Positions 50,336 to 60,242 of a stretch of DNA of 64,000 bases are shown here, in pieces. The notes under the pieces are model-generated. The model was not told the DNA's origin. It worked only from the letters and a program-made list of their open reading frames with translations, and searched no databases. The number at the start of each line of letters is the position of its first letter. The first letter of the stretch is position 1. A program made the position numbers and the translations under genes. Source of the DNA: Gloeophyllum trabeum ATCC 11539 (Eukaryota; Basidiomycota; Agaricomycetes; Gloeophyllales; Gloeophyllaceae); contig NW_006920414.1 in assembly GCF_000344685.1 (NCBI RefSeq), positions 1,927,577 through 1,991,576 on the forward strand. Reading direction: 5' to 3'.

Positions 50336-53300
50336 TCATACAAACTCATCCTCCATCAGGCGCTCGTGAGTCTCTTCTTCGGTCTCGCAGATGATAACTC
50401 TGGGTTCTAGCTTCCCGTGATCCACGGGGTTCACTCCAGAGTCTGGTCCTGGGTAACCAGTGGGCCCTGACGCGCCATCCGGGGCGGGCTTCACACTCTG
50501 CTCGTCCTTGAGCTCCGTGAAGCCTCCAGGAAACTGATACGCCTGGAATCGTTTCCCTTGAATTCCTCCATGGCCCCCTCGTCCTCCTTCGCCTCCAGGA
50601 CCTCCTTTGCCTTGTGCTCCGAACTGCACTCCGTCATTGTTCAACAAAGCCACAGACACTGTAAAACAATGGCCGGTGGTGTTACTCTGTAGCCAGTCCG
50701 GAACCTTGGTCTTTGTCGCAATTATTTGAGAGACGGGGAATGTCGACGGTCGTCCTCCGCTACCACCTGTACCCCCCGTGCCTCCCGTGCCTCCCGCTGT
50801 TGCTCGAGCACCGCCAATAACAGAATAGGAATAACCTGTCATTCCAGACCAGGGGTCAAAATTGGTATCAACAACACACTTGTCGCTGGTGCCGTTCACA
50901 CCATCGGCGCCAGCTTGACCATGAGCACCTTTCTCTCCTGTGCCACCAACCCCACCTCGATATTGGATTTCAAGATGGAGCCTGAGCTGCTCAGGCTCGC
51001 CGCTTTTGTAGACACTTTTGTCGGCGATTTGAACGAGCCAATTTCCTGTGACACGTATATCCACGAAACCGCCCATGTACCCGTCATTTCCTGCCATGGC
51101 CTGCCCGCCCATATCTGCGTAGCCACCCCATGGATCTCCTGATCGCACATCGAAGAGGACAACGGGAAATGCTTCAGGTGTGCTTGCTGCTGCCGTGGTT
51201 GCATATAGCTCAATGTCTTCGCATTGGAGCAGGACCTGTATCGGGACATCACTTTCGCATTTGACGGTGAGAGGACAATTTCGCATGATCAGCTTGCGCG
51301 CGAGGACGCGATATTTGACGATTTGCTGCCACTCGTCTCTAATGGCGAACAGTGCAAGCGGGTCATGCTCAGCGCCATCGAGAGTGATTGTGTCAGTCAC
51401 AATGGGCGGAGCAGAGTTGTCCCTAGGAACTTTGGGGGCGTCCGTCGACTTCGAAGGTCCATTCATGAAAGCAAAGTAAGATTCAATGTCGTGATAAATG
51501 GCAATATCCTCAGAAACTCCGGGTATGGGACGTGGATTAGGCAGCTGTGAAAGAACATTGGGACCAATGCCGACTATCAAGAGATCTTCGTCTGATGCCA
51601 AGTCTGCAGTTGCATAGGCTTTCTTATACCCCTGGGCCTTGTACAGGTTCACAACCCTTTCGACGGAGTGACCGTACGAGTTCCCTTTCCCAAAGGAAAA
51701 GTACACAGCTGGATCCCCTGCACTTCCGACAGACCGAGGAATAGAGTCACCGAGACCTCCATACTTGACCTTCAGTGATGCCTCGCTGCCATGATGGGTT
51801 GCGATGACATAGTAGAGCTTGCCATCGAGCTCGGAGATATTGTGAATGTACTCGTAGTTTGCGTCACCAGGATAGAGTAGCGGACGATCGTCATCCTGCA
51901 GTCCGACTACCAATGCCAGTGCGCCAGAATTATTCTTGTCGTCCTTATCAGTTGACTGGCATCTGAGTATCCGCCAGTTTCCTCCGGCTGGGCCGTATTC
52001 ATCGGTGGTGCACCATTCTAACAGCCCTTGAGCATGTATTGAGCAAGCCAGTTCGAAAGCTTTCGCTGTCAACGGTTGATCGGGGACAACCCAATGGCGT
52101 AGTGTAGGACATAGGCCGGTGCCACGAACGAGCTTGGCCCGTCCAGAGTCAGCAATCCGATAATGGTCGCGATCCCAATGGGATAAGATCACCGGCATAT
52201 CCTGGGTCTGTCGAAGGAAGTGATCAATCATGTCGGTGAAGTCACGATCTCCTTTGCCGAAGCCATAGTCGGATATGATACCCCATTTCTCCTTAGTCGA
52301 ACCGATCCAGCCCGCGGCTGCTACAGCCCACATGTTAGGCACGGTCAGAAGTATCCTAGCCTGGACGGACACACCTTGCCCCACATTTGCCATGGCATAA
52401 TGATCTGCCACTTTGTACTGACTAAGAGATATTGACTTCTTTGAAATGACGTCCGACAGACGGAAGAAGTTGGTGATATTATGACGGATAGCCTGACATC
52501 GCTCGAACAAAATTTGCAGCTTGTCCAAAGCTGTCTTAGGGACGTCAAGCGTAATCTTCGCCATGTCCACAGTTGCTTTGAAGCCGTTGTCAGTCTTTCC
52601 AAAGTTAGACAGGGCTCCACCAGTAAATGAGGCATAAGGGGATGTTACTTCGACCCAGCAAAGACCATTATCGAAGCTACCTTCAGGCGGAAGGACAGGC
52701 GCGTATGTTGCAGGAGTTGCAGCTTTCATGTCCAGCTCGAGGTTAACCCAGGTGCCGGCTTTAATGCCCGAAGGCAAGCTATGACAATAGATCTCGAGGC
52801 AGTAAATGCTGGTGGACGCAGCAGGAATGATGTTATCAGCGACAGTAATTCTCTTGATCTTTTGAAGCACTTCGTCGTCACCAAGGAGGTTTTCCTTGAC
52901 GGCTTCGATACGGACTGCGTAGCCGCGAGGATCTCCGGAACGCCCTTCCAGAGGGATAATCATGGCGACAGAGCCGTAGTAGTAGTCTTTGCGCTTGGCC
53001 TTCTGTTCGTCATCCTCGCGTTTCTTGTCTCGCTTCCGGTTTCGCTCCGCCTGCTTCCGCTTTTGTTTCTCCCGAAGATCACGATTAGCTTGATCCCGCT
53101 GTTCTTGCTGAGCAGTTTCCTGCGCGATCTTCTCCTTCAGCTGGCGCACAGCCTCTCGGAAAGCTGTCTCATCGGTTTGTAGGACCACACGAAATGAATG
53201 GCCGTATCGACTGGACAGGAGGATCAGCTCCATGTATAAGGCCGATCCGATCACTAGCAGCAGGAGGGCGGCAAAGGGAATGATAATGATTCCCTGCAGA

Positions 53301-53851
53301 GATACGTCGTCTTTGACGATGTGTGCCAGCTTGGATACGGCTAAAAGAGGTTCAGCCAATGTTTCCTCACTCCCCGAGGACGCTACCTCCTCCAGGTTTC
53401 GATTGGCCATCCGATCTGATATGAGAAGCAGCCTATCGACAGAGGTAGACGCGGAGGGTGCCAACAATAACGATGCCTTGAATCGTTCAACTGCATCGAA
53501 TGAGGACTTTGCGATTGCAGGATCCGATATCGACGAAACGTATGCCTCAAGTTTCGTGGTCGCATGTGCTTGAATGGTACTCCGCCATTTATCAGGGTCT
53601 AAGCCATTGGTATGGATGTTATCCTTCAATAACTGTATCGGAACATATTCCGGGATATCGGTCCCTTTGGAAAGCAAGGGTTGGTACTCCTGACCGGATA
53701 GCTCGGCTTGAAGCTTCCTGTGCTCCTCGTGGATATCGTGCGCATTTTTGCAAGTCGTGTTAAGCATCTCGTGAAGGGAGTCCGCCAAGGCATTCTCGAC
53801 TGCGTCCCTACTGAGTTCAGGAAAGCTTTGAAAGACATGTTCGATGTCCAT
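50336..53851 (-). CDS. Intronless membrane protein: ComEC-type MBL hydrolase with collagen-like tail
   Basis: One uninterrupted frame of 1171 residues. Residues 1-180 are helical and polar. A strong membrane segment spans about 187-212 (IIIIPFAALLLLVIGSALYM). A highly charged coiled coil follows (about 225-290, Lys/Arg/Glu/Gln). Residues 485-750 form a metallo-beta-lactamase fold of the ComEC/Rec2 class: NVGQGVSV (490-497; the usual Asp is Val), ISDYG (526-530), the metal motif SHWDRDH (557-563), YPGD (660-663), ATHHGS (684-689) and GKGNSYGH (721-728). Residues 965-1100 hold three Gly-rich collagen-like segments separated by non-repetitive parts. With one N-terminal membrane segment the hydrolase could face either side. 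ComEC hydrolases cut DNA or other phosphodiesters; the substrate here is unknown. The lack of introns over 3.5 kb is exceptional in this window. Confidence 0.85.
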   Translation of the reverse strand: MDIEHVFQSFPELSRDAVENALADSLHEMLNTTCKNAHDIHEEHRKLQAELSGQEYQPLLSKGTDIPEYVPIQLLKDNIHTNGLDPDKWRSTIQAHATTKLEAYVSSISDPAIAKSSFDAVERFKASLLLAPSASTSVDRLLLISDRMANRNLEEVASSGSEETLAEPLLAVSKLAHIVKDDVSLQGIIIIPFAALLLLVIGSALYMELILLSSRYGHSFRVVLQTDETAFREAVRQLKEKIAQETAQQEQRDQANRDLREKQKRKQAERNRKRDKKREDDEQKAKRKDYYYGSVAMIIPLEGRSGDPRGYAVRIEAVKENLLGDDEVLQKIKRITVADNIIPAASTSIYCLEIYCHSLPSGIKAGTWVNLELDMKAATPATYAPVLPPEGSFDNGLCWVEVTSPYASFTGGALSNFGKTDNGFKATVDMAKITLDVPKTALDKLQILFERCQAIRHNITNFFRLSDVISKKSISLSQYKVADHYAMANVGQGVSVQARILLTVPNMWAVAAAGWIGSTKEKWGIISDYGFGKGDRDFTDMIDHFLRQTQDMPVILSHWDRDHYRIADSGRAKLVRGTGLCPTLRHWVVPDQPLTAKAFELACSIHAQGLLEWCTTDEYGPAGGNWRILRCQSTDKDDKNNSGALALVVGLQDDDRPLLYPGDANYEYIHNISELDGKLYYVIATHHGSEASLKVKYGGLGDSIPRSVGSAGDPAVYFSFGKGNSYGHSVERVVNLYKAQGYKKAYATADLASDEDLLIVGIGPNVLSQLPNPRPIPGVSEDIAIYHDIESYFAFMNGPSKSTDAPKVPRDNSAPPIVTDTITLDGAEHDPLALFAIRDEWQQIVKYRVLARKLIMRNCPLTVKCESDVPIQVLLQCEDIELYATTAAASTPEAFPVVLFDVRSGDPWGGYADMGGQAMAGNDGYMGGFVDIRVTGNWLVQIADKSVYKSGEPEQLRLHLEIQYRGGVGGTGEKGAHGQAGADGVNGTSDKCVVDTNFDPWSGMTGYSYSVIGGARATAGGTGGTGGTGGSGGRPSTFPVSQIIATKTKVPDWLQSNTTGHCFTVSVALLNNDGVQFGAQGKGGPGGEGGRGGHGGIQGKRFQAYQFPGGFTELKDEQSVKPAPDGASGPTGYPGPDSGVNPVDHGKLEPRVIICETEEETHERLMEDEFV

Positions 53852-54551: not shown

Positions 54552-55927
54552 TTAGCACTTGGTACTCGCATAGACCTGAGTGGAGAAGCACTGCCAACCC
54601 ATCGACGTTAGCAGGGGGTAGCGACGACCAGCGGGTACATACGTTGTAGTTGTCGGCATTCTCAGCAGCCTCGTCGGGACTCGATTCGCCAAGGCTCTGG
54701 TCATAGTCGCACCCGTAGCCCACTACCACAGTGAATCAGCAGGGAGAAAGAAGCAGGCGAGAAGCGACGCACCGTCCTCCGTGCCGGAAGTAGCATGCGT
54801 AAGCTCATGCAGGACCGTCCCGCCGCGGATGTTGCGCGACGCGACGGACGTGCCCGAGCACAGCTGCTCCGTCTCCACCTCGTCGTAGAAGATGTCGCAG
54901 AAGTAGATGTCCGTCGTGGACGTGAGCGTGTATGCGATCACGCCGTCGTCGCACGCGTTCGCGACGTCCGCGCAGTTCAGCGTGCGCCCGGAGTCGTCCT
55001 CGTTCGCCACGTTCTATCGGGTATAAGCGGGACGGCTTGCGGTGGGGAAGTGGGTACTTACGTCAAGGACGCCGATGACGGTGGAGGTGGGGGTCGTGCC
55101 AAAGTACGAGGTGTAAAGGTCGTCTCTGCCGTTGCTCGAGACATAATCCGAGGCTATCGACGCGAGCTCCTGGCCCTCCTGGTAGCTGCAGCGCTATGCT
55201 CAGCCCACCGTAGGGTCAAGAAAAGGAGTCCGAAGCCTACCTGGACGAGATGTAGCTCGCCTGGCTGGTATCGTCGCAGCTGACGGTCGCGCGCTTGCGC
55301 GGGAGTTCACGCCGCTTGACGTCACCGTTCACCTTCACGGCGAAGGCTTCGCTGCCGATCTGGGCCTTCGCGCGGTCGACGGGCTCGGAGTCGTTCGACC
55401 AGATCTGGAAGGTCGTGACGGGCTCGATGGAGTACGAGCCCGTGCCCAGGGACTCCAAGTCGTAGAGGGCGGAGACTGTTGTACGTGAGCGGGTGGAAAG
55501 GGGAGCATGAGTTGGGTGAGACTTACTGTCGTGCTCGACCGTGTAGGTCTGGCCGGCGGGGATGGTGATGAAGGCACCATCGCTGACCTTGTTCAGGTCC
55601 ACGGAGATCTGAGCAAGTGACATCAGTACGTATATCGCACTGCCAGCGATATTTGCCCACCTTTGCCCCGGTGAACTTCGCCTTCTGTCCGTCCTTGGAG
55701 ATACGGAACGAGCGCGTGGGCAAGTTCCCATCCAAAACCGTACCATACTTCAGGATCTTCACGTCCTCCGCGCCCGCGTTCTTCACGGCAGCAGTGAGCT
55801 TCAGTTCGCCGACAGAGTTAACCGACGAGGGCCCCGTGAGCGAGACGGAGAGTGCCTGGGCGCGTTTTGCTGGGCTAGCATAGGCGAGCGCGCCGAGGCC
55901 GAGGGTGATCAATGACAGGCAGAGCAT
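54552..55927 (-). CDS. Secreted deuterolysin-type metalloprotease (M35)
   Basis: An extracellular zinc endopeptidase of the aspzincin class. About six exons give roughly 360 residues. A signal peptide (residues 1-18) is followed by a propeptide of about 170 residues ending in a Kex2-like KR site (PRKR before ATVSCDD). The catalytic site has HELTHA (the HEXXH zinc motif) and the aspzincin GTED-VGYG motif that supplies the third ligand, the Asp. YGCDYDQSLGESSP and NADNYN follow as in the family. The end is CFSTQVYASTKC. The mature part resembles peptidyl-Lys metalloendopeptidases of mushrooms, but the specificity cannot be read here. A perfect TATAAA lies 86 bases upstream. Confidence 0.93.
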
Positions 55928-57942: not shown

Positions 57943-60242
57943 ATGGCGAGCTCATCAAATTCTTCCTCAATGTCTGCCGCTCCTCAGAAGCCCAGGGGTT
58001 CCTACGGGTCGAACGTTCTATGGGCTCATCTGCTACGCAAAGACACGTCCTTGATGCCGCAGCCCTCCCTGAGCAGTAATTCTATAGGTCCTATAACACC
58101 GACCGACAAGACCGGCACATCTATGCGTATACTCTTACATGATACACAAGCTACCCTGGAGAAATTCTCGGCGCGGGTCGATAAACTGACGTCGGGCGTA
58201 GAGGAGACGAAGAGGGAGATGGTGACTATGAAGACGCTGTTCGGCGAGGAGCACGATAAGGTTGTCGAGCACACGGTGTCACTTGGTGAGAGGTGGAGGC
58301 CATCAGCGGCTAGTGTACCGCGATTATGACGCGCATATACCGACGTCGGGAGCGTATTGACGGCATTCTCTAGTGAACAGGTGCCAGACGACGTTGCAGT
58401 CCTCCATCGGAGCGCCTGCCCAGGCAGTCAAGGTCCAGGAAATTTTAGACGATCTATCTTCGAAAGGGGCGAAGCTCGAATCTCTGGATAAAAAACTTGA
58501 GCTACTTCAAATGGTACGCTCATATCCGCTGCTTGCTTCCCTCGTCATTGGTGGCCGCATATGACCGTTTCTCTAGATGGTACAGATGCAAACACAGACG
58601 TTGCAATCTATCCAAGAACAACAGGTCAACTTACTAACGTCCATAGTCCCCGTACTCCCCCTCCTCCAAGCTATCCCCGTCCAGCTCGAAGCAGCCAAAG
58701 TCGACATCAAGGACGCTATATGCAATATCCCCATGTCTTTGCCTGCTCCCCCTGCAGCTCAACCATTTCGACGTGCAGTGTACCAGTCCTCGAGCCCGTC
58801 TCTCGGGTCGCCGTCGCAGACCCAGAGTCAGACGAGGAAACGCACGAGATCCACAATAATCCCAGACGACGGGCAATATAGCAGGTTCTCGTCAAGTCGC
58901 GGCACGTCCGGATCTCCTGCTAGGAAGCGGCGGCGTACATCCTCGCCTACCTCACCTGTGCCCCCGAAAAAATCTGGAGGTATCTGCGGACGGTCACTTG
59001 ATATCGGAGCCCTCTCTCCGCTAACGGATAGAACAAATCGATCCTTTCATAGTCGATCTATTGGGGACCTGGGTGTCGTGCCACGATATCCTACGCCGAA
59101 GCAGACGTCCCCTGTGCTAGCAAAGCCCTCTGATTCTGGACTGGAACGCTTTGCAGCTAGCTCAGAAGTGGTCCCTGAATCTCCTAATGCTAGTCAGTCT
59201 AGTCATGTCTTTCCGGTCGATAATCTGTGTCTGGCTAGTCATGGACACGCGTCTTCCCCGAAAGCAAGTCCGGGCGTTGCTGCTAAGTCCTCCGCTGTCT
59301 ATCGCCTGGGTGCTCCCCTCCTAGGACATGGCCAACCCGGCGCTTCTGTGACTCCTTTGTCTAGACGTGTATCTGCCGTTGCATCGTCTTCTATGCTCAC
59401 CGGCGGGTCCAGATTAATACAGAAGATCCCGCCTCCTCACTTGCCCGCTACTCCCAGTGTCAACAGACGGCCCACGGTGTCACGTTTGGTCCCTCCGACT
59501 CCCCTCGGAAGCTCTGGTAGTCGATTGCCTCTTGGATGTTTTGGTCGCTTTGCTCCTCCTGGACTGGCGGAGGGGTCTCCTGCACTGTCTGCTCAGGGTA
59601 CAAGTACCGAAGCTGGTCGTCCTGCACGGCCGGATGTCAGGAGGTCTCCAGACGTAATCGATTTTGTTACCCCTCAGTTGTCCGGAAGTCCGCCTGGTAT
59701 CCCTCTGGGAGGCGTCTCTAGTCCTGGTGGGAAATCTCCTCCGTCTTTGTCGTCACTCTCTCCTCTTCCTGGCATTAAGGGCAAAGTTGGCTCTGAAAGT
59801 CAGTTCTCTCCTGAGATGCCTCTGTCGCAGGTCGTCAGAGGTCGCCTCTCCTCTGTTCTGGCGACTAGCTCAGTGAAGACAACGATTACGCTCCAGGCCG
59901 AGAAGGAAGCGCGGGTGTCTTCGTCTCCTCCGATTTCTGCGCGCCCGCGTACGATCGGGGCGCCCACGGCTGCTGCGCTGTTCGATACTGATCAGGACGT
60001 CACTGTCATCTCGCGCGCGCAGGCTGTGGGACAGCCAGTGAATATCTTGGGGACCACTGTGGCGTATGATTCAGGGTCGGTGGGCGGCAAGCCTATGAGC
60101 TTGAAGGATAGGATGGCAGCTCCGGTACTCGAGTCTTTCTCTCTTCTTCCCTCTCGTACTGACCATTTAGCAGAAGCTCGAAGGGAAGAGGTTTATACCT
60201 GTGGATGACTTAGACGACGATGACGAGAGTTCGTTTGGGTGA
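57943..60242 (+). CDS. Unknown coiled-coil, Ser/Pro-rich protein
   Basis: Four exons (57943-58285, 58374-58513, 58577-60124, 60174-60242) give 699 residues with all junctions in phase. The N-terminal 200 residues hold a conserved-looking GSYGSNVLWAHLLRKDTS block, then two heptad-rich coiled-coil stretches (TLEKFSARVDKL to EEHDKVV, and ILDDLSSKGAKLESLDKKLELLQ followed by Met/Gln-rich helices). A long disordered Ser/Pro-rich region follows, with basic clusters (TRKRTRS, PARKRRRTSSP) that look like nuclear localisation signals. The C-terminus is a separate acidic exon, KLEGKRFIPVDDLDDDDESSFG. The layout suggests a nuclear scaffold; I do not know the function. Its ATG is only 105 bases past the transposon end at 57838, so that element may now supply promoter sequence. 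Confidence 0.75.

Follow-up and report, generated by a model that had tools for sequence, protein, structure and literature searches.

A probable single-pass membrane protein of Gloeophyllum trabeum with a ComEC-type metallo-hydrolase core

The stretch of DNA analyzed here (the window) comprises 64,000 nucleotides of contig NW_006920414.1 from the basidiomycete Gloeophyllum trabeum ATCC 11539 (positions 1,927,577 to 1,991,576), and its gene GLOTRDRAFT_60082, as judged from sequence and a structural model, probably encodes a fungal single-pass membrane protein with a nuclease core of the ComEC type and metallo-beta-lactamase (MBL) fold. An earlier note, made from the letters of the window, assigned the catalytic core to the ComEC/Rec2-type MBL-fold hydrolases; this assignment is right, the relationship emerging from profile, profile-profile and structure comparison. 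Nuclease chemistry, being the best-supported reading of this core, is considered rather likely.

Catalytic Domain of the ComEC/Rec2 Type

Those sequence profiles which gave any match point to ComEC and none to Pce, and in structure comparison ComEC of Moorella glycerini (9ic4) surpassed Pce (2bib) by 2.7 Z. With ComEC/Rec2 (9ic4; TIGR00361) the fungal protein has in common the MBL fold and, in the same order, the HxDxDH variant of the metal motif, the GD and HHGS motifs and the N-x-[YF]-GH stretch, as well as, putatively, an OB or OB-like domain on the N-terminal side of the MBL domain. In contrast to ComEC, it is eukaryotic, has no multi-helix DNA channel, carries one probable membrane anchor and additional N- and C-terminal modules, and its OB-like and MBL domains are adjacent. 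Only one hydrophobic segment of the window protein exceeds the threshold, as opposed to the multi-helix channel of ComEC, and no Competence (channel) domain appeared in Pfam matches of this protein and 11 relatives.

The H-x-D-x-D-H motif, the Asp of the GD motif and the His and Ser of HHGS are present in all 14 family members (P0001-P0014). By motif order H558, D562, H563, D663, D560 and S689 (unspliced numbering), all invariant in the 14, are equivalent to H598, D602, H603, D700, D600 and S728 of the 9ic4 protein, the equivalence for D700, H725 and S728 being one of motif order and not of residue-level structural alignment. According to PMC12455585, nuclease activity of that protein is nearly abolished by alanine changes of H598, D602, H603 and D700, and is reduced about 5-fold by D600A and about 3-fold by S728A. 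In 27 aligned bacterial proteins the D560 position is occupied by Asp (24) or His (3) and the other His/Asp positions are invariant, while the place of S689 is taken by Ala in 17, Gly in nine and Ser in one, i.e., HHGA or HHGG replaces HHGS in 26 of the 27. Counted by looser patterns, SHWDxDH and HHG occur in 15 and 17, respectively, of 17 family records including fragments, and in 122 and 115 of 123 bacterial sequences.

The Pfam search proposed in the earlier note returned no MBL family for the window protein even at E <= 1 (three weak unrelated matches), and two weak unrelated families, again without MBL, for the MBL domains of ten family members; Pfam, NCBIfam and PADLOC gave nothing significant on the window protein. 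The curated ComEC_Rec2 cut-off was not reached (no match for the window protein; 15.8 bits versus 190 for P0014). Comparison of the window protein with Protein Data Bank (PDB) sequences by phmmer gave six matches (best E 0.11), and the family MBL profile found there three WD-repeat (WIPI2) matches (best E 0.042) and no ComEC. Matches of seven family members in PHROGs were weak and mostly confined to coil regions (best E 0.006). For the OB-like domain, hhalign produced no match with ComEC and Foldseek of its model none at E <= 0.001; the single match at E <= 0.001 in a viral structure library (TM 0.05 and 0.16) is not meaningful. The literature search yielded no title on a fungal ComEC-type protein, by which absence is not proven.

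Coding Frame and Modular Organization

The single 3.5-kb open frame described in the earlier note was borne out, and its strand, not stated there, is minus, the plus-strand reading of the same segment being full of stops. Counted with an upstream extension, this frame runs for 1201 codons without a stop, nearly twice as far as any other stop-free stretch in the window (622 codons), and it is not a chance frame, because P0002 from Gymnopilus dilepis (67% identity) and P0003 (66%) match the whole query. Its description as intronless was not confirmed: on sequence comparison, a predicted intron interrupts the coding region at 52374-52321. This 54-nt GT-AG stretch (GTGTGT...CTAAC...TGTAG), one of four GT-AG choices tried, when removed yields letter for letter the 1153 residues of P0001, the deposited prediction of the same gene, and the same 18 residues are missing from P0001, P0002 and P0003. 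Its length is divisible by three and it holds no in-frame stop, and therefore a single frame was perceived. The intron lies inside the first motif; in the NVGQG reported from there, the second G is read across the exon-intron border and is lost on splicing in Gloeophyllum (NVGQ-AAAGW; NVGQ-GAAGW and NVGQ-GATGL in relatives), while the order of motifs given in the note holds. The presence of an intron, along with a single match and no second copy in a six-frame search of the genome, leaves the suggested retrocopy unsupported. GC content of the gene (0.52) is similar to its surroundings (0.50-0.57 for most neighboring kilobases).

An AlphaFold2 model built from 33 sequences (spliced numbering; mean pLDDT 77.6, pTM 0.67) predicts an N-terminal helical part, a further helix at 190-212, a long charged helix at 218-286, a small beta domain at 290-428, the MBL domain at about 480-773 and a beta-rich, mostly confident C-terminus with Gly-rich stretches; confidence is moderate for residues 1-130 and pLDDT is below 50 for 131-224, the low-confidence stretch which includes helix 190-212. 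The strong hydrophobic segment and the charged coil of the earlier note are both present (Table 1), the coil being placed by sequence and model between the putative anchor and the OB-like domain, which would be followed by the MBL domain and the C-terminal module. This last module occurs in the majority of the 14 family members that were aligned, P0010 ending before it, and in none of the 27 aligned bacterial proteins. Within the whole-protein model, its segment 50387-51400 has good confidence.

Tethering to the membrane, also proposed earlier, is supported by a hydrophobic segment (peak over 1.6 in a simple hydropathy scan) in 13 of 14 family members, exactly one in 12 of them; P0006 has none above the threshold and P0013 has a second, weaker one. 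Net charge is negative or zero over the 30 residues preceding the segment in 13 of 13 members and positive over the 80 following ones in 11 of 13, albeit over the first 30 of these in just six of 13. By the positive-inside rule of membrane topology, this charge pattern leans, weakly, toward a cytosolic position of the catalytic part.

Table 1. Features of GLOTRDRAFT_60082 in the window (residues in unspliced numbering for the MBL domain and motifs)
Feature	Coordinates	Strand	Basis or remark
Whole coding region incl. stop	50336..53851	minus	1171 codons unspliced, 1153 aa spliced
Exon 1	52375..53851	minus	splice reconstruction identical to P0001
Intron, 54 nt, GT-AG, in-frame, inside NVGQ(G) motif	52321..52374	minus	18 residues absent from P0001, P0002, P0003
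Exon 2 incl. stop	50336..52320	minus	splice reconstruction
Predicted N-terminal helical region, residues 1-185	53297..53851	minus	AlphaFold2 model
Hydrophobic, probable membrane segment, residues 187-212	53216..53293	minus	mean hydropathy 2.67
Charged coil, residues 218-286, 21 K/R and 15 D/E	52994..53200	minus	
OB-like beta-barrel domain, residues 289-430	52562..52987	minus	outline common with bacterial relatives
ComEC-type MBL-fold domain, residues 480-791, intron included	51479..52414	minus	profile and structure comparison
NVGQ motif	52376..52387	minus	
SHWDRDH metal motif (H558, D560, D562, H563)	52163..52183	minus	His and Asp invariant in 14/14 members
PGD motif (D663)	51863..51871	minus	corresponds by motif order to ComEC D700
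THHGS motif (H686, H687, S689)	51785..51799	minus	
GNSYGH motif	51668..51685	minus	matches ComEC N-x-[YF]-GHP stretch
C-terminal beta-rich region with Gly-rich segments	50387..51400	minus	50555-50956 encodes 134 residues, 39 of them Gly

Elsewhere in the window, two overlapping minus-strand frames at 55237-55927 seem to resemble a secreted deuterolysin-type metalloprotease and probably belong to a single, intron-containing gene, and a 543-codon open stretch on the plus strand (58577-60205) has no PDB sequence match.

Distribution and Bacterial Relatives

The search with the MBL region among 5.8 billion proteins, itself of limited reach, brought 14 proteins including that of the window, and a search with words from residues 1-500 brought three, likewise including it; the fungal label of P0003, P0012, P0013 and P0015-P0017 is given by similarity. 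The closest relatives found outside fungi form a bacterial stand-alone SHWDxDH family of mostly about 400 aa (e.g., P0023 of Acidithiobacillus and P0035 of Methylorubrum). The MBL core is shared, and many members also possess, at the N-terminus, a YFAYVD...W domain aligning with the fungal OB-like domain. Coil and Gly-rich tail are both absent from the 27 members aligned. For most of the 49 proteins P0018-P0066 the bacterial label derives from a few named ones and from 74 named loci, the latter detected by scanning contigs with the bacterial alignment. With the fungal alignment as query, viral contigs gave 26 and prokaryote contigs 25 pattern matches, none of them a relative; P0023 had no match in a phage collection. 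Very long versions (1405-1832 aa by an ORF script) were met in L051, L055, L058 and L062, belonging to Myxococcota and one record named Comamonas; in L051 and L055 the MBL domain is followed by repeated ADTGNH-type segments, presumably NHL-like.

In the phylogenetic tree, rooted by five ComEC rows, 15 family rows make up one clade (SH-aLRT 100). Seven rows were omitted by the length filter (L003, L024, L035, L058, L062, L063, and L072) and six more were also left out (P0016, P0017, P0040, P0045, P0050, and P0058). The AU test (p 0.319) does not reject a tree which keeps all 112 bacterial rows together, and long branches prompted a warning from the program; for these two reasons we do not claim that the family is nested in bacteria. 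Lateral acquisition, as the earlier note had it, stays plausible by distribution without being decided by the tree: presence over many bacterial phyla and in few fungi makes bacteria-to-fungi transfer the simplest reading.

Genes at the 74 bacterial loci were called by a simple ORF script. In seven of the 74 loci (L002, L004, L013, L026, L043, L054, and L056), an HsdM-like gene of one BLAST cluster precedes the MBL gene at a distance of 2 to 5 genes, on the same strand in six of the seven; none lies downstream. The NPPF or NPPY motif is present in all seven. The name HsdM relies on Pfam and PADLOC where the protein was among 98 neighbors scanned and on similarity alone for L002, L013 and L043, and as L054 and L056 are close relatives the cases number about six independent ones. 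In L002, L004, L026, L054 and L056 the stand-alone SHWDxDH gene comes behind a same-strand gene row with the HsdM-like methylase. The gene behind such rows is a candidate accessory defense nuclease. The signal claimed is this one-sided upstream position; enrichment beyond it is not claimed because no background rate was computed.

Among the 98 same-strand neighbors the 25 commonest of 94 Pfam families include N6_Mtase (5), Methylase_S (4), HSDR_N (3), protein kinase (4) and patatin (2), a selection which single-case families, e.g., a protease, could escape. Five further neighbors compared with PDB sequences matched malonyl-CoA decarboxylase, a Ser/Thr kinase and a HerA/TdpA-like ATPase and, weakly, SMC and VapBC. 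Five plasmid loci were read: one has VapC-type and TIR-domain genes near a recombinase; others carry a UvrD helicase, patatin with other MBL genes, or SIR2 with an ATPase; and on the fifth, of Vibrio tubiashii (L080, 8001-8567), the relative lies upstream of type VI secretion structural genes on the same strand.

Functional Considerations

In the proposed mechanism, the single hydrophobic helix could anchor the protein in the membrane with its catalytic part facing the cytosol, the OB-like domain would keep DNA near the active site as the OB fold of ComEC does, and two metal ions held by HxDxDH, the PGD Asp and nearby His would activate water, which would cut the DNA backbone. The most likely role, though proposed with less assurance, may be destruction of foreign or self DNA as a defense effector, as bacterial relatives beside restriction and defense genes may do. 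The link to defense comes by analogy from bacterial relatives only and from the ComEC-like MBL nucleases serving in Hachiman, AVAST and Canu defense (PMC12799240); the role in fungal self/non-self response suggested in the earlier note found no direct support, the HET, NACHT and Peptidase_C14 matches of the genome (1, 12, and 2) being all outside the window. Only tentatively, one may envisage a fungal immune effector derived from a captured bacterial defense nuclease (the OB-like and MBL core, as encoded downstream of type I restriction genes), tethered to the membrane and extended at its C-terminus by a fungal module for sensing or assembly; upon infection or incompatible fusion, this effector would destroy invading DNA or that of the cell itself.

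Other assignments are to be weighed against this. The MBL domain could be a phosphodiesterase acting on a non-nucleic-acid membrane substrate, such as a phosphocholine compound in the case of Pce, with the OB-like domain incidental. This appears unlikely given the better fit of 9ic4 and the profile matches described above; besides, Pce is the nearest structural neighbor of ComEC itself (PMC12455585) and hence the expected runner-up. Pce (2bib), missed by the sequence profiles used, has His at the first-Asp place of the HxDxDH shared by ComEC and the fungal family, and Asp instead of the second His of HxHxDH is what sets ComEC apart from Pce (PMC5031224). Equally to be considered is a nuclease with a housekeeping or developmental task in filamentous fungi, turning over organelle or nuclear DNA apart from immunity. 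The 67% full-length identity between Gloeophyllum and Gymnopilus, suggestive of steady constraint, and the window free of HET, NACHT and Peptidase_C14 agree with it, but the patchy set of 14 proteins, within the reach of the search, does not, and we hold it improbable.

Quite improbable is a protease-gated pro-nuclease like HamM, Avs1a and CanC, which would stay inactive until cleaved by a partner protease and would then destroy DNA, whereupon the cell dies or ceases to grow. Bacterial defense ComEC-like MBL nucleases do work in this manner (PMC12799240), and an intracellular nuclease would need restraint. These proteins, alike in the type of nuclease and used in immunity, have a partner protease and, for gating, two disordered insertions. 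No counterpart of either was seen for the fungal protein, HamM, Avs1a and CanC sequences not having been compared: the model has no segment of at least three residues with pLDDT <50 within 480-773, so disordered insertions are not apparent; PADLOC gives one weak Cas3g match among ten family domains; and Peptidase_C14 has no match in the window, trypsin not having been searched for.

The preferred reading, that of a membrane-anchored ComEC-type nuclease which may be a borrowed DNA-destroying defense enzyme, concerns a class with known occurrence in bacterial DNA uptake and, as recently found, in anti-phage systems. Independently of the fungal part, the nuclease-like gene which several bacterial groups carry downstream of restriction-modification genes makes a candidate defense component. 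If the reading is true, the nucleases of fungi would be enlarged by a class, channel-less, membrane-anchored and missed by Pfam, that occurs in Asco- and Basidiomycota, and bacterial and eukaryotic immunity would have a further link.
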